A stretch of 37,268 nucleotides of DNA, from positions 1 to 37,268 of the IMG/VR virus record IMGVR_UViG_3300031857_000583, one strand, 5' to 3'. The notes under the pieces were generated by a model. It made no database searches. It was not told the DNA's origin and saw only the letters and a list, made by a program, of their open reading frames with translations. The translations under genes were made by a program, and so were the position numbers. The stretch is from a virus. This document shows, piece by piece, positions 3,537 through 34,795 of the stretch (positions are counted from its first letter, which is position 1; the number at the start of each line of letters is the position of its first letter).

Positions 3537-6292
3537 TGGCAGACCAAAAGTTATCGGCATTAACAGCAGCATCAAACGCAGCAGAATCAGATGATTTATA
3601 CCTTGTTACTGATACTACTACTTCACCTACTTCAAAGAAAATAAGTTTTAATAATCTACAGACTTCATTTACAAACATATCGCTTGATTCAGCACAATTT
3701 GATGTAACAAACACCACTTTACCGGTAGAAGGTCAAGTTGCTTACAACGCAACTGACGCTAACCTTAAACTTGGTCTTGCCGGTGGTAATGTTCAAGTTG
3801 CTTTAGGTCAGGAGTTAGTCCTACCAAAAAGAGTTAGAAACGAAAGTGGAACTACAATGACAAAAGGAACTATTGTTTATATTTCCGGAGTTAATGGAAA
3901 CACCCCACTTATATCAAGAGCATTAGCATCATCAGATGCAACATCTGCATTTACAATCGGATTTGTTGCCGAAGATATATCAAATAATGCTAACGGTTGG
4001 GTTGTAACAAATGGTGTTATTTCAGGTCTTAATTTATCTTCATACACTGCCGGACAAACTTTATATTTATCAGGAACAACTGCAGGAGAATTTACATCAA
4101 CTAAACCATCAGCACCAATTCACATGGTAAGAGTTGGAATAGTTACTAAAGCAACAGCAAGTGGAGAACTAATTGTTGTTATACAAAATGGTTTTGAACT
4201 TGAAGAACTACATAATGTTTCTATAGTTGGTGTTGGTAACGGAGATTTAATACAATACGAATCATCTACAAGTTTATGGAAAAATGTTCCATTAAACACA
4301 ATTAACGGTGCTTATCTAAAATTAGATTTATCTAATATCCCACTTACAGGAACAAACCTAACATTTGATGGGGCATCTAACAAAGTTATTGATGTTAATA
4401 GAAGCACAGTAACAGTTGGTAGAAGTTTAGATATAAAAGCAGGTGCAGCAATACAAAATGGAACAAACCTTGCCGGTGGAAATTTGATTTTAAGGTCAGG
4501 AGTAGCGACAGGAAGTGGAAGTTCTGACATACAGTTTTGGACTACAACTGCCGGTTCATCAGGAACTGTAGATAGATTACAAACACAAAAAATGGTTATC
4601 AAAGGTTCAGGTAGAGTAGGTATTGGAAATTTGAATCCAACATATACTTTAGATGTTACCGGTGCAGGAAGATTTACAGGTTCATTACAAGCATTAAATG
4701 TAGCAGGAACTAACACCGGAGATAACTCACAAGCATTTTATGGAAACGGTGCTGATGGAATTATTTACATGGATGGTTCTAATTACAATGTCCCTTACAT
4801 GACTTTTAATGGAACTGATACTTACACATTAACAAGAGATATTTATGCCGAAGCACTTGTGTTATATCAATCAATAATTTTAGAAACAGCAGGATATAGA
4901 ATTTTTTGTAGAGATATTTTTCAATGTTATGGAACAGTTAGAAATAATGGTGGAAATGCTTCCGGTGCTACAGCAGGAACAGGTGCTACAGGTGGATTCT
5001 TCAAAGCAGGTGGAGCAGGTGCTGCCGGACTTGGAACAGGTTCTGCCGGTGCTAATGGAACTGCACAAGCAACACCTACAGCAAACACATGGGTAGGTGG
5101 ATTAGGTGGTAGGGGTGGTGCAGGTAGAGCAAGTGCTGCTACTTTTGAAGGTGGCATGATTACAACTACAAACTTAACTACACCTGCAAATTCAGATGGT
5201 GGAAGTCATATCACTTCAAACATTGTTAATTACTTAAATAAATTCGTAAATATTGGTGGAGCAAACCAACAAATGACTCCTTCAGTCGGTGGTGGTTCAG
5301 GTGCTAAATCAGCAACAGGAACTACTGCTACTTCCGGTGGTGGGGGTGGTGGTGGTGGAGTTGTTTTCGTTGCTGCTCCAAGTATAGATGGTGGTGGTTT
5401 AATTCAAGCAAATGGTGGTAATGGTGGCAATGCTTCAGGGACAGGTGGTTCATTTGGTGGTGGAGGTGGTGGTGGGGGTGGAATTGTAGTTTTATTATCT
5501 AAATTAAATGACACCGGAGTAGTTTATCCAACTGCACTTGGTGGGGCAGGTGGGTCGCCGGTTACAGGAACAAACGGAACTTATACAGTTGCAGTAGCAA
5601 ACGGAACAGCAACATCTACAACTACAGCATTAAACATTACACCAACAACACCTTTATCTAAAGGAAATATGTATATTGTTACTGTTCATTTACAAAAAAC
5701 AGGTGGAATTGGAACTTTATCTGTTAATTCAGTATATGGATACAATTTGAATTGGCAATTTGTAAATTCAGTTGATTTTAATACTACTGCATCTCCAACA
5801 AGAAGAATTGAAGTTTGGTATGCTTGGTATGATGCAACATTTACAGACCCTGATATTGCAGGTGATGAAAGCATAAGAATAGATTTATCTGAAGCACCAA
5901 CTGCTTCAAGAGTAATAGTAGATGAACTTCAAAATGTGGATTTAGGGACTATTGCGAACAATACTAATACAAACGCAGTAGATTCTGCTTTAACATTGTC
6001 AGTTACTTTAGGAACTGCACCAAGTGCCGGAAACACAGTTTATTCAGTATTTGGTAAAAGTAATAACATTGCTGCAGCAGCAGGTGCAGGTAACACTATA
6101 ATCAATAACCAATACACAGCAGCACCACCACTTGTTTCAGAAGTTTCAACAGCACAAACAACAAATGCTATTTCTCACGCAACTACAGCAGCAGCAATAG
6201 GTGGAATTAGTTTTGAAATAAATAAACCACCAACAGATGCTTCTAATGGTGGTGATGGATGGGATGGAAAGGTAATAAGATTGTATGGATAA
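3536..6292 (+). CDS. Tail fibre / adhesin with poly-glycine domain
   Basis: 918 residues. The N-terminus (KLSALTAASNAAESDDLYLV, then TTSPTSKKISFNNLQ) is the arrangement typical of the virion-attachment end of phage fibres. Around residue 365 is a GIGNLNPTYTLDVTG segment, also common in fibres. Residues about 475-675 are glycine-rich, with runs of eight to nine consecutive glycines separated by VVFVAAPSI and IVVLLSK strands. This resembles the poly-glycine II helical bundles of known phage adhesins. The C-terminal 200 residues are beta-rich. The start overlaps the previous stop as TAATG. Likely host-recognition protein. Confidence 0.75.
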   Translation: MADQKLSALTAASNAAESDDLYLVTDTTTSPTSKKISFNNLQTSFTNISLDSAQFDVTNTTLPVEGQVAYNATDANLKLGLAGGNVQVALGQELVLPKRVRNESGTTMTKGTIVYISGVNGNTPLISRALASSDATSAFTIGFVAEDISNNANGWVVTNGVISGLNLSSYTAGQTLYLSGTTAGEFTSTKPSAPIHMVRVGIVTKATASGELIVVIQNGFELEELHNVSIVGVGNGDLIQYESSTSLWKNVPLNTINGAYLKLDLSNIPLTGTNLTFDGASNKVIDVNRSTVTVGRSLDIKAGAAIQNGTNLAGGNLILRSGVATGSGSSDIQFWTTTAGSSGTVDRLQTQKMVIKGSGRVGIGNLNPTYTLDVTGAGRFTGSLQALNVAGTNTGDNSQAFYGNGADGIIYMDGSNYNVPYMTFNGTDTYTLTRDIYAEALVLYQSIILETAGYRIFCRDIFQCYGTVRNNGGNASGATAGTGATGGFFKAGGAGAAGLGTGSAGANGTAQATPTANTWVGGLGGRGGAGRASAATFEGGMITTTNLTTPANSDGGSHITSNIVNYLNKFVNIGGANQQMTPSVGGGSGAKSATGTTATSGGGGGGGGVVFVAAPSIDGGGLIQANGGNGGNASGTGGSFGGGGGGGGGIVVLLSKLNDTGVVYPTALGGAGGSPVTGTNGTYTVAVANGTATSTTTALNITPTTPLSKGNMYIVTVHLQKTGGIGTLSVNSVYGYNLNWQFVNSVDFNTTASPTRRIEVWYAWYDATFTDPDIAGDESIRIDLSEAPTASRVIVDELQNVDLGTIANNTNTNAVDSALTLSVTLGTAPSAGNTVYSVFGKSNNIAAAAGAGNTIINNQYTAAPPLVSEVSTAQTTNAISHATTAAAIGGISFEINKPPTDASNGGDGWDGKVIRLYG

Positions 6293-28497: not shown

Positions 28498-28513
28498 AGT
28501 GCTACAATACTGT

Positions 28514-28555
28514 TGCCGGAATTTTGTGATTCACCTCCTTTTTTCCGGCACTTTT
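28514..28555 (+). terminator. Probable terminator after the transglycosylase, with anti-SD-like loop
   Basis: TGCCGGAA (28514-28521) pairs with TTCCGGCA (28543-28550), followed by CTTTT. The loop is 21 bases and holds GATTCACCTCCTTTT, which closely resembles the 3' end of bacterial 16S rRNA (GGATCACCTCCTTT). The large loop makes it a weaker terminator than that at 27686. Confidence 0.6.
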
Positions 28556-28559
28556 AATT

Positions 28560-28593
28560 TACCCATTGAATACATTTATAAGTAAGGTATAAT
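28560..28593 (+). promoter_or_regulatory. Promoter P8 for the RNA at 28600
   Basis: TTGAAT (28566-28571), 16 bases, perfect TATAAT (28588-28593). A variant of the shared operator, TACCCAT-N11-ATAAGTA (28560-28584, one mismatch in the left arm), overlaps the -35 box. The predicted start, seven bases past the -10, is C28600, the first base of a hairpin. Confidence 0.6.
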
Positions 28594-28599
28594 TCTATT

Positions 28600-28690
28600 C
28601 AATCATCTTAATCCATGATTGTTAATTTTTTAGTCCTAATCCTATAAGTCCCACAGACTCCACAGGGTTAGGACTAAAAAGTTTCATTAA
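28600..28690 (+). ncRNA. Candidate structured RNA A (two hairpins)
   Basis: Hairpin 1: CAATCAT / ATGATTG (28600-28606 / 28615-28621), followed by a TTAATTTTTT run that could itself act as a weak terminator. Hairpin 2: a 17-base-pair stem with one wobble, 28627-28643 pairing with 28664-28680, and a 20-base loop with a small AGTC/GACT inner stem. The segment TATAAGTCCCAC (28643-28654), mostly in this loop, is perfectly complementary to GTGGGACTTATA at 32624-32635 in RNA B. No ORF covers this region. It may be an independent small RNA or the 5' leader of the gene at 28738; the 3' end cannot be fixed. Confidence 0.5.
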
Positions 28691-28737
28691 AAATTTAGTA
28701 AAAAAATATTCTTGCCGAAAAAAATAAAAAGCACGAT

Positions 28738-29211
28738 ATGACTTACTATGAACGACCGGATGATTCCGTAAATGAACAGAGAATTTTAGAGAAGGCGAAG
28801 CAATTATTTCCGTTCTTATCCAAATTTAATTTTGAATACAGACCGGACGGAATCACCGGTGCAATATATGATGCAAGAAGTATTGATACTGACGACAAAA
28901 TTCATATTGATATTAAAATCCTATACGACAAAAGAAATTATAAAAAAAATATAATCTCCACCGAAAAGTATGATTATATGGTCGCACGACCGGATAGAAG
29001 ATTCTTCTTTCTTGCATACTACCCAAACCAAAACAAAATGAGATTAAGACAGATTCATCAGCAAACTTGTGAATATGAACCTAACTTTACTTGGCGACAC
29101 AAAAGGGAATCTGAAAGACAGGGAAAAGATGTTTATAAATCAGATAGCATATATTACCTTGTAGGAAGATACGAAGATAGGTTTGTTGAAAAGTTTATAG
29201 AAAATTTATAG
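28738..29211 (+). CDS. Hypothetical protein, possible PD-(D/E)XK-type nuclease
   Basis: 157 residues. A helical N-terminus (NEQRILEKAKQLFPFL), then strands around IHIDIKILYD (D58-I-K60), a STEKYDYM segment, and FFFLAYYPNQNKMRL. The D-x-K strand followed by a K-Y-D-x-M helix and a hydrophobic strand resembles small phage nucleases of the PD-(D/E)XK superfamily, but the first acidic residue of the motif is not obvious. No clear ribosome site precedes ATG 28738; it lies about 58 bases after RNA A. Confidence 0.45.
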   Translation: MTYYERPDDSVNEQRILEKAKQLFPFLSKFNFEYRPDGITGAIYDARSIDTDDKIHIDIKILYDKRNYKKNIISTEKYDYMVARPDRRFFFLAYYPNQNKMRLRQIHQQTCEYEPNFTWRHKRESERQGKDVYKSDSIYYLVGRYEDRFVEKFIENL

Positions 29212-29230
29212 ACTTTATTGGCATAAGTAA

Positions 29231-29236
29231 TATAAT
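29231..29236 (+). promoter_or_regulatory. Possible -10 box upstream of 29244
   Basis: A perfect TATAAT eight bases before ATG 29244, directly preceded by ATAAGTA (29223-29229), one operator arm. There is no good -35 at 16-18 bases, so promoter activity is uncertain. Confidence 0.4.
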
Positions 29237-29243
29237 ATGGGTA

Positions 29244-29522
29244 ATGCTTACTAAAATGCCACCTGCAAATTTCTACGAGATAGCATCATACGAAGCACCT
29301 GCAGCACCTATTGCCGTTGGGGGTCTTATGATGATGAACGAAGTAGGAACAATGCTTGAAGATGAAGATATTGTTTTTGTAATGGGTTGGTCGCATGACG
29401 AGTGTTACATGCTTGTTAATAGACCCTACCAAGTCTTAACAGATATTGTGGATAAATCACGATTAAATGTGGATGAAGCATTAAAGAGTAGAGATTTTAA
29501 GACGGACATAATCAATGAATAA
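29244..29522 (+). CDS. Hypothetical protein
   Basis: 92 residues, not recognised. Starts MLTKMPPANFYEIASYEAP and has a GGLMMMNEVGTML stretch and a DDECYMLVNR-like segment (HDECYMLVNRPY). Possibly leaderless because the ATG is eight bases after TATAAT and there is no ribosome site. Overlaps the next gene by 8 bases. Confidence 0.5.
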   Translation: MLTKMPPANFYEIASYEAPAAPIAVGGLMMMNEVGTMLEDEDIVFVMGWSHDECYMLVNRPYQVLTDIVDKSRLNVDEALKSRDFKTDIINE

Positions 29523-29745
29523 AAAAATAGAAAATAAAACAAAAGAACTGATTCAGAAATACGCTGAATACAGGGGTGCTATAGATGAAAGAATCACCTA
29601 CGAAAACCTTCTTGAAGTATATTTAAGTGCTGATAGAAATGCAAAACAGGTTTATAAAAGAGAAATGGTCGCTTATATCAAAGCAGTTGATGAAGGCAAA
29701 CTTGAAAAAGGATTGCCGATTGTAGTCGCTGAATTGTCTAACTAA
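29515..29745 (+). CDS. Hypothetical helical protein
   Basis: 76 residues, all helical and highly charged (NKKIENKTKELIQKYAEYRG, YLSADRNAKQVYKREMVAYI). Not recognised. It overlaps the previous gene; its stop codon lies inside the foot of the three-way-junction RNA element that follows. Confidence 0.55.
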   Translation: MNKKIENKTKELIQKYAEYRGAIDERITYENLLEVYLSADRNAKQVYKREMVAYIKAVDEGKLEKGLPIVVAELSN

Positions 29746-29828
29746 TGGTGGGGTTCAAACCAAGTGCTTGGGCAGGAACTTGTCATAGCAGTTAAGATTA
29801 CCTAACTGTTGTTTGACCCTACCACTAG
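29742..29828 (+). ncRNA. Three-way-junction RNA element ahead of the terminase genes
   Basis: Stem 1: 29747-29760 (GGTGGGGTTCAAAC) pairs with 29811-29823 with one bulged T, and continues outward to 29742/29828 with one mismatch. Stem 2: CAAGT / ACTTG (29761-29765 / 29778-29782) with an inner CTT/AGG extension and GGGC loop. Stem 3: AGCAGTTA / TAACTGTT (29787-29794 / 29803-29810) with loop AGATTACC. Junction strands are 0, 4 (TCAT) and 0 bases. The 90-base gap it fills has no ORF, and the next gene has no visible ribosome site. It might be a cis-acting mRNA element, a packaging-related RNA or a binding site. Confidence 0.65.
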
Positions 29829-29835
29829 ATAGACA

Positions 29836-30090
29836 ATGTTAAAACCAAACCAAAAGCAAATTATGAGAATTGTTATGGATTGGTGCAGATACCATACTGA
29901 CCCAATCTCACAAATTGAAATTGCTATTCAGGCAAAAAGGACAATGCCCCTTCCAACACTCAAAGCAACATTGCTATCATTGATAAGAAAAAAGTATTTA
30001 AGAAAAGCAGTTAATGTAAAACCGATTGCTTATGTTAAGTTAAAGAATTTGGATTATTACGAATATGAAGAATACTACAATCAAAGATAA
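29836..30090 (+). CDS. Small winged-helix-like protein
   Basis: 84 residues. Pattern of a short helical DNA-binding domain: KQIMRIVMDWCRYHTDPISQ, then LPTLKATLLSLIRKKYLRKA with a helix-turn-recognition helix and a basic wing-like segment, then an aromatic tail (YYEYEEYYNQR). Not assigned to a family. It has no Shine-Dalgarno and follows the three-way junction by 7 bases. It overlaps the terminase small subunit gene by 26 bases. A role in regulation or packaging-site binding is possible by position. Confidence 0.5.
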   Translation: MLKPNQKQIMRIVMDWCRYHTDPISQIEIAIQAKRTMPLPTLKATLLSLIRKKYLRKAVNVKPIAYVKLKNLDYYEYEEYYNQR

Positions 30091-30583
30091 AATAGCATCA
30101 AGTAAAGGCAGACCTACTTCCCATGAAGTTAGATATAAAAGTGTTGGTAGAAAACCTATTATTACCCCTGAAGTTGTTGCGATTTTGGAAGAAGCATTTC
30201 TTATAGGTCATACTGACGCCGAAGCATGTTTAATTGCAAACATTGACCGTTCAACATTTTATAGATACATTGAGAAAAATCCGGAATTTGCTACAAGGAA
30301 GGAAGAATTAAAAGAGAATCAGTTCGCAATCGCAAGAAGAACGCTGATGAAGGGTGTTAAAGAGAATCCGGAATTGGCATTAAAATTCCTTGAGAGAAAG
30401 AAAAAAGCAGAGTTTGGGGTCAAGACCGAAGTTGATTTAACTACCGGTGGAAAACCTATTACAGGGTTTAATTATGTATTACCAAGTCAAGTTATAGAAG
30501 GGGAGATTGCAGATGAATCCAACACTGAAACCAACGCTGAAACAACACCAAGCATTTCAGATTCTGCAGGACAAACAAACTAA
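30065..30583 (+). CDS. terS: Terminase small subunit
   Basis: 172 residues. A helix-turn-helix lies at about residues 50-75 (HTDAEACLIANIDRSTFYRY), followed by a long helix (KEELKENQFAIARRTLMKG) and ALKFLERKKKAEFGVK, the typical layout of phage small terminases that bind the packaging site. The tail (QVIEGEIADESNTET) is acidic and may contact the large subunit. ATG 30065 lies in the previous gene without a clear ribosome site, so translation is probably coupled. The large subunit gene overlaps its end by 71 bases. Confidence 0.8.
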   Translation: MKNTTIKDKIASSKGRPTSHEVRYKSVGRKPIITPEVVAILEEAFLIGHTDAEACLIANIDRSTFYRYIEKNPEFATRKEELKENQFAIARRTLMKGVKENPELALKFLERKKKAEFGVKTEVDLTTGGKPITGFNYVLPSQVIEGEIADESNTETNAETTPSISDSAGQTN

Positions 30584-31958
30584 CTTCCTATTATTTGGTG
30601 GTGCTGCCGGTGGGGGTAAGTCATGGATTGGTTGCGAGTGGTTACTGACTAACTGCTACCTATATCCTAATACAAGGTGGTTTATAGCAAGAAAAGAGTT
30701 AAAAAGACTCATGGCATCCACTTATCAAACATGGGTTAAGGTTACAAGGCATCACAATATTCCGGCAAATGATTGGACATTAAATTCACAGATGCACTAT
30801 ATTCAATTTGCTAATGGTTCAAGAATTGACTTACTTGATGTCGCTTACCAACCTTCAGACCCTGAATACGAAAGACTTGGTTCTATTGAATTTACAGGTG
30901 GGTTTGGAGAAGAAGTAGGAGAGTGGGACTTCAAAGCATTTGATACCCTTAAATCAAGGATTGGTAGGCAATTAAACACAGAGTATGGACTAACTCCACC
31001 TAAATTCTTTTTAACATGTAACCCTACAAGGAATTGGGTCTATAAAGTCTTTTACGAACCATATAAGAACGGTAACCTTCCGGCAAACTATAAGTTCATC
31101 CAATCGTTATACAAAGATAATCCACACACAGCAGATATTTATGCACAACAACTTGAAACAATCAGTGATGCTACTTTAAGAGCAAGGTTAAGAGATGGAC
31201 TATGGGAATACACCACTGATGACTTGGCAATCTTTAACTATTCAGCAGTGTTAGACTTATTTACCAATCGCTTGGAAGATTCAAAAGATAAATATTTCAG
31301 TGCTGATATTGCAAGGTTTGGTTCAGACAAAATAGTCTATGGGGTATGGCGTGGCATGAACTTAATTAGATTAGAAGATAGAAACAAACAGTCTATTATG
31401 CAAACTGAAAATGATATTAGGGACATGCTTCATAAAGAGTTTATACCGTTCAAAAATGCCATTATAGACGAAGATGGAGTAGGGGGTGGGGTGTTAGACC
31501 ATTTGGAAGGAATTAACGGTTTTATGGGTGGTAGGAGTCCGTTATCCAAAAGTGAAGATGTGCGAACTAATATCACCAATGCACCGGCAAATTACATTAC
31601 CAAACCTAACTACAAGAACCTACGAAGTCAGTGTTACTTCCTTCTTGCTGACGCCGTTAATAACAGAAGGGTCAGTATTACAGCACCGGTCAGTGAAGAA
31701 GTTAAATATAAAATCATAGAAGAATTGATGCAAATAAAAAGAGTTGATACCGGCACTGATGCACCACTTCAAATCATACCCAAAGAAGATATAAAAGAAA
31801 ACATTGGAAGGTCGCCGGATTATGCTGATACTCTCATGATGCGTATGTATTTTGTAGCAGCAATCCCTGATACTTCGCATGACTTTTATATGCCACCTGC
31901 AGAGTATTTACAGCAAAAAGGAGTAACAAATCCATTTGGTGGAATTGGATGGAACTAA
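30513..31958 (+). CDS. terL: Terminase large subunit (packaging ATPase and nuclease)
   Basis: 481 residues. Walker A GAAGGGKS at 30-37; Walker B region FTGGFGEE at 127-134; coupling motif TCNP near 168. The C-terminal RNase-H-like nuclease has acidic residues at D265 (SADIARFGSDK), D319/D321 (IIDEDGVGGG) and D436/D439 (SPDYADTLMM). It packages DNA into the procapsid through the portal and cuts it. ATG 30513 is chosen because AAGGGGAG lies about 8 bases upstream; the TTG at 30507 sits too close to that site. The 71-base overlap with terS suggests coupling. Confidence 0.93.
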   Translation: MNPTLKPTLKQHQAFQILQDKQTNFLLFGGAAGGGKSWIGCEWLLTNCYLYPNTRWFIARKELKRLMASTYQTWVKVTRHHNIPANDWTLNSQMHYIQFANGSRIDLLDVAYQPSDPEYERLGSIEFTGGFGEEVGEWDFKAFDTLKSRIGRQLNTEYGLTPPKFFLTCNPTRNWVYKVFYEPYKNGNLPANYKFIQSLYKDNPHTADIYAQQLETISDATLRARLRDGLWEYTTDDLAIFNYSAVLDLFTNRLEDSKDKYFSADIARFGSDKIVYGVWRGMNLIRLEDRNKQSIMQTENDIRDMLHKEFIPFKNAIIDEDGVGGGVLDHLEGINGFMGGRSPLSKSEDVRTNITNAPANYITKPNYKNLRSQCYFLLADAVNNRRVSITAPVSEEVKYKIIEELMQIKRVDTGTDAPLQIIPKEDIKENIGRSPDYADTLMMRMYFVAAIPDTSHDFYMPPAEYLQQKGVTNPFGGIGWN

Positions 31959-31959
31959 T

Positions 31960-32589
31960 ATGGCACAACTAAACGCTAACATACCGTATATACAATGCTT
32001 TATCAGGAAGGAATACACCGGATACGAAGAACATCTTGAAGGATATATTTTTGGAGTTAAATCCATGCTTAATAGACCTATGCACTTTCATTTCTTATCA
32101 AGAATCGGTGCTATCTTTTGGAACATGCCAATAAGTGCATTTGCTCATAAAGAAGATTTTGACCCATTATCTGATGACGAACAAAAAAGATTATCACTTC
32201 TTCAGACTTGGGATTGCCAATCAAACAATATAGCAGTAACTACATTTGCTTTCCTACAAAACAAAAGGGTAGATGTTCATTGCAGAGATGGGGTTTGGAG
32301 AAGTGGAACTTATCTATTTACCATTGATGATTACGAAGGCGACCTAAACGAACTCAATGTAGGATATTCAAACGACCAAGATTCTAAATGCTATCAGTTT
32401 ATAGTGCTTGATGACGGTAACTTCTGCATCCCACCTAATAATCTTTTGAGATGGCATAATCCGGACTTTATAGTTCCTTATGACCAAACAAATGTGCCAA
32501 GACTCAAAGTATTCAAAGAACAACTAACAAGTGAAGATATTGATAGAAGTTATGGCAATTCCCCATATTTCTTTTACCAAGCATCTTGA
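31960..32589 (+). CDS. Conserved-looking hypothetical protein between terminase and portal
   Basis: 209 residues, not recognised. Contains paired aromatic/His segments (NRPMHFHFLSRIGAIFWNMP), DPLSDDEQKRLSLLQTWDCQ, a beta-rich centre (VDVHCRDGVWRSGTYLF) and an RWHNPDFIVPY segment. ATG 31960 is one base after the terL stop; the TTG at 31936 inside terL is unlikely. Its last four bases overlap the start of promoter P12. Position suggests a packaging or head role, without direct evidence. Confidence 0.6.
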   Translation: MAQLNANIPYIQCFIRKEYTGYEEHLEGYIFGVKSMLNRPMHFHFLSRIGAIFWNMPISAFAHKEDFDPLSDDEQKRLSLLQTWDCQSNNIAVTTFAFLQNKRVDVHCRDGVWRSGTYLFTIDDYEGDLNELNVGYSNDQDSKCYQFIVLDDGNFCIPPNNLLRWHNPDFIVPYDQTNVPRLKVFKEQLTSEDIDRSYGNSPYFFYQAS

Positions 32590-32613
32590 ACTTATATTTA
32601 GATTTAGTATTAT
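32586..32613 (+). promoter_or_regulatory. Promoter P12 for structured RNA B
   Basis: TTGAAC (32586-32591), 16 bases, TATTAT (32608-32613). The predicted start is at 32620-32621, exactly where the first hairpin of the non-coding region begins. Promoter P8 has the same layout (TTGAAT-16-TATAAT with start at a hairpin base). Confidence 0.5.
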
Positions 32614-32619
32614 TGATTT

Positions 32620-32900
32620 AGTCGTGGGACTTATAAGAAGTCGGAGTGCGACAATAAAGAAATTCTGATTCGCTATACTTGGGCATCAGGGACATACACT
32701 TAACGATTAGGCAAGAGAAATACCAAGAGCAAGGACATAATGGAGAAGGTGCATTGAACCTAACAGATTCTTCTCCCACTTACTAACCATGTAGGTCTGA
32801 TGTGATAGGTAATATAACTCCAAGAGAAAATGGAACACAGTTATATTTATATGAACCTAGTAATGGGGGATTATAGGGGGACTAACTCCCTTAAACACCT
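32620..32900 (+). ncRNA. Candidate structured RNA B in a 427-base non-coding gap
   Basis: The gap 32590-33016 holds no convincing gene. It has five foldable hairpins in order: 32621-32652 (GTCGTG/TGCGAC outer, GACTT/AAGTC inner); 32663-32691 (TTCTGAT/ATCAGGG with wobbles); 32742-32776 (GGAGAAG/CTTCTCC); 32806-32859 (AATATAACT/AGTTATATT, nine perfect pairs, with outer TAGGT/ACCTA); and 32875-32891 (AGGGGG/CTCCCT). GTGGGACTTATA in hairpin 1 (32624-32635) is perfectly complementary to the loop of RNA A at 28643-28654. No terminator with a T-run was seen, so the 3' end is a guess. The rest of the gap to 32980 is AT-rich without clear structure. Confidence 0.55.
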
Positions 32901-32981
32901 TAACACCACTTTACAACTTTAACCCAACCACTAACTTGAAGTAACAAATAAATTTACCAAAGATACTGCACAAATTACAAC

Positions 32982-33010
32982 TTGATAAAAATTAAATTGA
33001 TACATACAAT
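32982..33010 (+). promoter_or_regulatory. Promoter for the leaderless portal gene
   Basis: TTGATA (32982-32987), 17 bases, TACAAT (33005-33010), then six bases to ATG 33017. No ribosome site is present between. Same -10 to ATG distance as at 130, 9137, 12357 and 23373. Confidence 0.6.
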
Positions 33011-33016
33011 TTCATT

Positions 33017-34795
33017 ATGGACAAAGAATATAAACAGTTTGTTGATGCCGATATTGAATCAATCAAACAAGATAAACAATCGGCATTTAAGTTCAAAGAA
33101 AGAAGATTAGTAGATTGGGATGATAACTACCTTCTTTATAGGGACAAAGTAGTAACCAACAGACTTATTCAAAGACAATCGGTAAATGTGCCACTCATGA
33201 AGTATGCAATCAATACAATCATGAAGGACTTGAACGAAACCCCACAACTATATTTCAAGAATTTAGATAATAAAGAAGAACAAGAGATTTACTTCAATGA
33301 ATTTTGGAAGGAGTGTGCTGACAGAAATAACATAGACCAACTTGCTGAAGTTGATAGAAAACAAGCATTACTTTTTGGGCGAAGTTTTAAGAAGTTAAAT
33401 ATTGAATACGGCAAAATCACAATGGAAGTTATAGACCCAAGAGATATGCTCGTTGATAGATTTGTTAATCCGGTAAATTTTGACGGTGCAAGATTTATCA
33501 TGCAGACCGGAATCTACAGAACTTTAGAAGATATACTAAACAACGAAGAATATGATGAAAAAGGTAAAGAACAATTACGAATCCATTACGCAAATAAAGA
33601 CCAAACATTAGCACAAGACACAACTTACGAATACAACACTGATAGAGATAGAAGGTTTGCAACTATGGGAGTTATGGATGCTTATACTCCAACTGTTAGT
33701 GCTATGACTATTGAACTTAATGAAGTTTATAAATATGAGTATTGCGAAGAACACAAGAAAAACTTGATATTTGTTTATGTTGTAGCAGTCGCTGATTCTT
33801 CTTATTATAAGTTATACAAGGCAAGACTTTATGAGTTACTTGGAGAAACTGAAGATGATTTTTGGCACGACCATTTCCCTTATACTTCATGGGCAACTGA
33901 CATTGAAAGAACTGACTTTTGGTCAGACGGTGCAGGAGATGTTATTAGAACACCAAACAAGATTGTAAATTCATGGATGTCCCAACTTGTTGAGAACAGA
34001 CAACTCCGAAACTACGGCATGACTTACTACAATGCAACCAATCCTAACTTCGTTCCACAGACTTATACACCACAACCATTTGGATTCTATCCGGTTGCCG
34101 GTAATCCTAATGAAGTTATGATGCCGGTTGAGATTCCGGACTTATCTGAATCTTTAGATGAGATTCAATATGTTGTAGGACTTGCTGAAAAGGCAACAGC
34201 AGCAACAGCAACTCAACAAGGAGTAGTTGAAAAACAAGCAGTAACTTTAGGTGAAGTTCAATTAGCGTTAGCAAATGCTCAACAAAGAGTTGAATCAATT
34301 CAGAAGTTTATTGACCAAGATTGGAAAGATTTAGGTGAGAAATTTGCCAAATTAACTAAATCAGCAGTAGATTCACTTGTTCCGGTGCTTGTTACTAAAA
34401 ATGGTAAAAAGGGACTACAAATCTACACAAGAGAAATTACAACCAAAGATTTCAAAAACAAAATGGGTTACCAAGTTGAAGTCCAAATGCTTAAAGACAA
34501 GCAACAACAAGATATTGATAACATCCAAAAACTACAGGCAGCAGTTGGAATCATGCCAAATAACCAACCACTACAAGAAATTTATAAAAGACATCTATTA
34601 CAATTTGCCGGACTTACTCCGGAAGAAATATCACAGGTGGAAGAATTTGAAGAACAAGGTGCAGAACCTGAACCAACACTTGGTCTTGATACATCAAACG
34701 CTATAGAAGGGGAAATCATGCAGGAAGATATGCCACAAATGATGGCATTACCACAAGGCGAAATACCATCCATGCCGGATTTAACAGGAAGATAA
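33017..34795 (+). CDS. Portal protein
   Basis: 592 residues, the usual size of podovirus portals. Characteristic stretches: NVPLMKYAINTIMKDLNETP, QALLFGRSFKKLNIEYGKI, MEVIDPRDMLVDRFVNP and GARFIMQTGIYRTLEDI, then a wing region and long C-terminal helices (GEVQLALANAQQRVESIQKF) that form the crown, with an acidic, Met-rich tail. Twelve copies form the ring through which DNA enters and leaves the capsid. It has no Shine-Dalgarno and an upstream promoter that predicts a leaderless mRNA, unusual for an abundant structural gene. Confidence 0.9.
   Translation: MDKEYKQFVDADIESIKQDKQSAFKFKERRLVDWDDNYLLYRDKVVTNRLIQRQSVNVPLMKYAINTIMKDLNETPQLYFKNLDNKEEQEIYFNEFWKECADRNNIDQLAEVDRKQALLFGRSFKKLNIEYGKITMEVIDPRDMLVDRFVNPVNFDGARFIMQTGIYRTLEDILNNEEYDEKGKEQLRIHYANKDQTLAQDTTYEYNTDRDRRFATMGVMDAYTPTVSAMTIELNEVYKYEYCEEHKKNLIFVYVVAVADSSYYKLYKARLYELLGETEDDFWHDHFPYTSWATDIERTDFWSDGAGDVIRTPNKIVNSWMSQLVENRQLRNYGMTYYNATNPNFVPQTYTPQPFGFYPVAGNPNEVMMPVEIPDLSESLDEIQYVVGLAEKATAATATQQGVVEKQAVTLGEVQLALANAQQRVESIQKFIDQDWKDLGEKFAKLTKSAVDSLVPVLVTKNGKKGLQIYTREITTKDFKNKMGYQVEVQMLKDKQQQDIDNIQKLQAAVGIMPNNQPLQEIYKRHLLQFAGLTPEEISQVEEFEEQGAEPEPTLGLDTSNAIEGEIMQEDMPQMMALPQGEIPSMPDLTGR

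Follow-up and report, generated by a model that had tools for sequence, protein, structure and literature searches.

Two non-coding regions flanking the packaging genes of a tailed phage carry complementary segments and matching promoter-like motifs

Two gaps between genes of a tailed phage, hereafter R1 and R2, contain short segments that are exact reverse complements of each other, which raises the question whether they represent RNAs recognizing one another or only an accidental match. The DNA analyzed is a virus record of 37,268 nt (37.3 kb), the whole of which we call the window. Its plus strand carries nearly all the long ORFs; it encodes a coat protein similar to the major head proteins of the P22 type, as well as an ERF-family recombinase and a lysozyme-like protein, and the closest named relatives of its terminase genes belong mostly to phages of Bacteroidota.

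The comparison relies on IMG/VR relatives, of which L003 and L004 are near-identical copies of the window, while L005, L006 and L007/L008 represent three further sequence types. R2 was found in all of them (L003-L008), that is, in four sequence types including the window; R1 is covered by the window, its near-twin L004 and L008 only, corresponding to two independent R1 variants in the collections searched. L008, a distant relative, is a 38-kb contig, 21.8 kb of which were used for the promoter and complement searches. A pattern scan of genome contigs for R2 gave no match, a scan with the protein encoded directly after R2 retrieved no relatives, and no report of an R2-like RNA was found in the literature searched, the coverage of which was partial. 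Other candidates were set aside: a contig (L011) retrieved by scanning for GGGGG..GGGGGACTAAC turned out on inspection to be an unrelated, GC-richer phage with a chance match; the cultured phages phi10:1, 11b, P12002L and Versailles, which match in terL, lack a comparable gap behind that gene; R2 is absent from dozens of other phages harboring homologues of gene 31960; and in L076, a more distant relative (66% identity in terL), the place of R1 is taken by a large gap that lacks the core of the complementary segment, and the contig ends before R2.

Gene layout and promoter-like motifs

The features of the locus are reported in Table 1. The R1 gap (28498-28737), located behind the lysozyme gene, has no ORF of at least 50 codons starting in it on the plus strand, and the only ORF of the R2 gap (32590-33016, 427 nt) is a mechanical one of 53 codons on the minus strand; with this one qualification, the absence of ORFs from both regions, asserted in an earlier note on this DNA, holds.

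Table 1. Features of the R1/R2 locus (positions in the window).
Feature	Position	Strand	Remarks
Promoter-like motif upstream of R1, TTGAAT-16-TATAAT	28566-28593	+	28-mer identical in L008
R1, predicted 5' leader of the transcript into gene 28738 and packaging genes	28600-28737	+	ORF-less gap; promoter-like motif just upstream; predicted start about 28600
R1 hairpin	28624-28683	+	arms 28624-28643 / 28664-28683; inverted repeat, 20 nt, 90% complementary
R1 pairing segment (putative), TATAAGTCCCAC	28643-28654	+	core TAAGTCCCA (28645-28653) kept in L008
First gene behind R1 (gene 28738)	28738-29211	+	L008 has a homologue with 42% identity, also behind R1
Terminase small subunit, between R1 and R2	30065-30583	+	PHROG 4102, E 7e-16
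Terminase large subunit (terL), between R1 and R2	30507-31958	+	PHROG 2, E 3.8e-31
Gene 31960, directly before R2	31960-32589	+	PHROG 3704, annotated "ferredoxin"
Promoter-like motif upstream of R2, TTGAAC-16-TATTAT	32586-32613	+	in window, L003, L004, L005, L006, L007, L008
R2 structured RNA (predicted)	32620-32890	+	start predicted near 32620; last conserved motif GGGGGACTAAC (32876-32886); alignments with covarying stems
R2 hairpin 1	32621-32652	+	outer stem GTCGT/GCGAC, inner stem GACTT/AAGTC
R2 pairing segment (putative), 16-mer GTGGGACTTATAAGAA	32624-32639	+	contains 32624-32635, exact complement of 28643-28654
Gene directly after R2, portal by position (gene 33017)	33017-34795	+	592 aa, no family match

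PHROG and Pfam searches with gene 28738 gave no match. Gene 33017 is read as a putative portal gene because phi10:1 and 11b have theirs in this position, downstream of terL. Gene 31960 is unusually conserved for a phage gene, with 72-81% identity in dozens of phages whose flanking genes are quite different.

The neighborhood holds further structured sequence. A third candidate structured non-coding RNA (29743-29838, z -2.8) precedes the gene for the terminase small subunit. Its interior CCAAGTGCTTGGGCAGGAACTTGTCATAGCAGTTAAGATTACCTAACTG recurs unchanged in L008, where the long closing stem differs and is largely still paired; at the equivalent place, L076 shows a short stem-loop containing GGGCAGGA. 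The large non-coding region of L076 at the R1 position (4800-5340 of that contig) is predicted to be strongly structured, the minus strand (z -6.7) exceeding the plus strand (z -4.9), and has no Rfam match.

R1 and R2 are preceded by motifs of one form. The pattern TTGAAN-16-TATNAT, defined post hoc from the two upstream regions and then counted, has exactly two sites in the window, directly upstream of R1 and R2, and exactly two in the 21.8 kb of L008, at the syntenic places; it is missing from the opposite strand of both sequences, the expectation under an order-2 Markov model being 0.23 per strand. In L006 the end of gene 31960 is in a different coding frame, yet TCTTGAA is retained. A general scan of the region for sigma-70-type sites found them no more numerous than in shuffles, so that the argument for promoters rests on the position and exclusivity of the motifs. 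These matching motifs support the idea that R1 and R2 might each be transcribed from a start of their own and, since they lie directly upstream, the transcripts are predicted to begin at the hairpins. No intrinsic-terminator-like site was detected by scan between 27900 and 33400. A possible further promoter (TTGATA-17-TACAAT, 32982-33010) ends 6 bases before the start codon of the portal-position gene, and TACAATTT is invariant in the relatives.

Structure and complementarity of the two regions

The R1 hairpin is strongly predicted (z -5.7 for 28580-28737). The earlier note described a 17-bp hairpin with the complementary segment mostly in its loop: the arms measure 20 nt, and the location is essentially right, 11 of the 12 bases lying in the apical region, part of which is possibly folded into a mini-stem of 4 bp. 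Between the window and L008, the promoter-like motif and the final portion of the leader can be aligned, the hairpin cannot; indeed, L008 carries at this place a different hairpin of completely other sequence.

R2 as a whole (427 nt) is not unusually stable (z -0.05), and an Rfam search gave no match at the gathering score and chance-level matches only at E <= 10. In the alignments of the relatives, several R2 stems besides hairpin 1 carry changes on both sides. Within hairpin 1, two pairs of the outer stem are changed on both sides in L008 and still paired, and two pairs of the inner stem are broken in L006, with the 5' side unchanged; this covariation is modest, being equalled by 35 of 500 shuffles. 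The longest run invariant over the four sequence types is the 16-mer GTGGGACTTATAAGAA, followed by GGGGGACTAAC. The alteration in L006 of the partner of GACTT, with the 16-mer intact, implies that the latter is conserved beyond the need of an intramolecular partner.

As the earlier note had stated, TATAAGTCCCAC (28643-28654, plus strand) is the exact reverse complement of GTGGGACTTATA (32624-32635), which does sit in the first hairpin of R2; neither has a further perfect copy on either strand of the window. Copies with two mismatches are common (9 matches in all vs. 2.75 expected). If one mismatch is allowed, the inverted pair extends to 15 nt (28640-28654 / 32624-32638), and GACT at 28656-28659 faces AGTC at 32620-32623, adding four pairs beyond a 1-nt bulge, in agreement with the flanking match that had also been pointed out. 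The coincidence had been judged unlikely but not impossible, and a figure can be put on it: 37 of 2000 dinucleotide-shuffled pairs of the R1 and R2 gaps reach a perfect complement of at least 12 nt. The 12-nt match alone is therefore suggestive only, weak evidence for this pair of gaps, and needs outside support. A second possible contact, between TTAGTCC of R1 and the GGACTAA that R2 has near 32880, was dropped, as it involves chance-level 7-mers and is absent in L008. A putative resemblance of TAAGTCCC to a well-known stretch of 16S rRNA was likewise set aside, 8-mer matches being expected by chance.

Such support comes from the way in which the segments have been retained. The longest perfect sense complement of the R2 16-mer occurs at one place in the window, the R1 leader (12 nt), and the same search in the 21.8 kb of L008 also leads to one place, again the R1 leader (9 nt, or 10 with a G-U pair). 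Ranking by helix energy on the sense strand, with G-U allowed, puts the R1 site first both in the window (-17.6 vs. -12.7 kcal/mol) and in L008 (-13.9 vs. -12.7 kcal/mol), and the only sense copy of TAAGTCCCA in the whole 38-kb L008 contig is the one in R1. A match of at least 9 nt to the R2 complement was obtained with 63 of 20,000 shuffled L008 leaders and, when both strands of L008 are counted, in 0.75% of its 87-nt windows.

The earlier note had proposed to look for covariance between the two regions, and had regarded a change in one segment without the other as speaking against pairing. The complementarity is kept in L008 as a core of 9-10 nt, and compensatory changes are absent among the two independent R1 variants, the R2 side being invariant. 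Change has indeed been one-sided, three of the twelve R1 positions (1, 2 and 12) differing in L008, where position 2 becomes a G-U pair; the 9-nt core is still there. The suggested kissing-loop geometry is not sustained: the segment is in the R1 loop in the window only, the L008 core is placed at the foot of its hairpin and on the 3' side, and the R2 segment spans both stem and loop of hairpin 1. On the whole, the persistence of a 9-nt core in an otherwise unalignable L008 leader, complementary to the most conserved R2 segment, favors pairing over chance.

Energy calculations are compatible with an R1/R2 pairing and are no proof of it. Once the cost of opening the two sites has been deducted, the duplex energy amounts to -6.1 kcal/mol for the window and to -3.4 kcal/mol for L008 (-0.4 if the L008 hairpin 1 is taken alone). 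In co-folding without pseudoknots, a procedure that cannot represent loop-loop contacts, pairing is not favored in the window (equal or better results with 171 of 300 shuffled leaders) and only weakly favored in L008 (25 of 300).

What the two regions might be

The reading that we prefer, and to which we assign a probability of about 0.5, takes R1 and R2 to be the leader RNAs of two transcripts under common control, which pair through a contact of the R2 5' hairpin with the R1 leader. The complementarity and its conservation in L008, the two matching promoter-like motifs and some covarying R2 stems are visible in the sequences; transcription, pairing in the cell and a regulatory effect of either sign are inferred. 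R1 and R2 would be the 5' ends of two phage transcripts driven by two copies of one promoter type, the first serving the packaging operon, which runs from gene 28738 through terL to gene 31960, and the second serving R2, a structured RNA of about 270 nt or more placed before the portal-position gene. The segment GUGGGACUUAUAAGAA of the R2 5' hairpin would pair with UAAGUCCCA of the R1 leader, and this pairing might adapt the packaging-operon mRNA to the activity of the capsid operon, by way of stability, of attenuation or of translation, the mode of action being that of a phage antisense or leader-pairing RNA. More tentative, and doubtful as a whole, is the fuller picture in which two matched-promoter transcripts with complementary 5' ends allow a large new RNA, R2, to sense or tune the packaging mRNA, linking terminase supply to capsid production.

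The match might instead be a coincidence, R1 being an ordinary 5' stabilizing hairpin leader and R2 having a job of its own (leader of the portal-position gene, or packaging RNA), with the 16-mer kept for the R2 fold or for a protein. The frequency of equally long matches among the shuffled gaps, the unrelated hairpin sequences of R1 in the window and L008, and the co-folding of the window without excess affinity all agree with this idea, which we consider possible, if rather unlikely; it leaves unexplained that the best complement of the most conserved R2 run is R1 in both the window and L008, that the 9-nt core is retained where its surroundings have been replaced, and that L006 changes the intramolecular partner of GACTT, the 16-mer remaining the same.

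Two other explanations accept that the segments are functional. R1 and R2, which belong to the same strand and the same gene run with no terminator-like site detected between them, might lie on one read-through transcript, where a long-range duplex would enclose the packaging genes in a loop of about 4 kb and serve RNase III-like processing or mRNA protection. The pairing strength would be equal in cis or in trans, whereas the promoter-like motif of R2 and the length of the L008 duplex (at 9-10 bp, short for cleavage by a double-strand RNase) make this arrangement improbable. Less likely again is an action at the DNA level, the alternative named in the earlier note, with TAAGTCCCA/TGGGACTTA as an operator for a phage regulator, in opposite orientations just downstream of two matching promoters. 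It would account for the single type of the two motifs, for the position of both sites, downstream of the predicted starts by no more than about 55 bp, and for a conservation of the R2 16-mer exceeding intramolecular pairing; however, the distances from the promoters are unequal (about +4 for R2, about +36 to +54 for R1), and the conserved orientation is exactly that needed for pairing, a single inherited orientation that is in itself weak evidence. If the two regions are indeed paired leaders, RNA would connect the DNA-packaging genes with those of the head in a little-known group of tailed phages; a new structured RNA family and a simple layout of two promoters would be involved.

Comparison with known systems

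Stabilizing hairpins at the 5' end are known in the leaders of phage and bacterial mRNAs. R1 resembles them in having a strong hairpin near the predicted start, with sequences that differ among relatives, and departs from them in carrying a conserved core complementary to R2; to our knowledge, such hairpins need no conserved core complementary to a second RNA.

The phi29 packaging RNA is a non-coding RNA that is bound to the portal, is needed for packaging and makes loop-loop contacts between copies of one RNA. R2 is likewise non-coding and close to the packaging and portal-position genes; unlike in phi29, its proposed contact is a leader and not another copy of R2. R2 showed no sequence match to phi29-type packaging RNAs and no match to the Rfam packaging-RNA families.

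A closer parallel might be the CI RNA of phage P4, a phage-encoded structured RNA that pairs with the leader sequences seqA and seqC and controls the downstream operon; it is processed from the regulated transcript itself and acts in immunity (PMC4825925). R2, too, is proposed to pair with a complementary leader of the same phage. Unlike the P4 RNA, it has a promoter-like motif of its own and lies about 4 kb downstream of R1, between the packaging and the portal-position genes, and neither a sequence relation to P4-type CI/seq RNAs nor an Rfam match was found. On the reading that we prefer, R1 and R2 would be functionally similar to the P4 CI RNA/seqA-seqC pair, without being members of its family.
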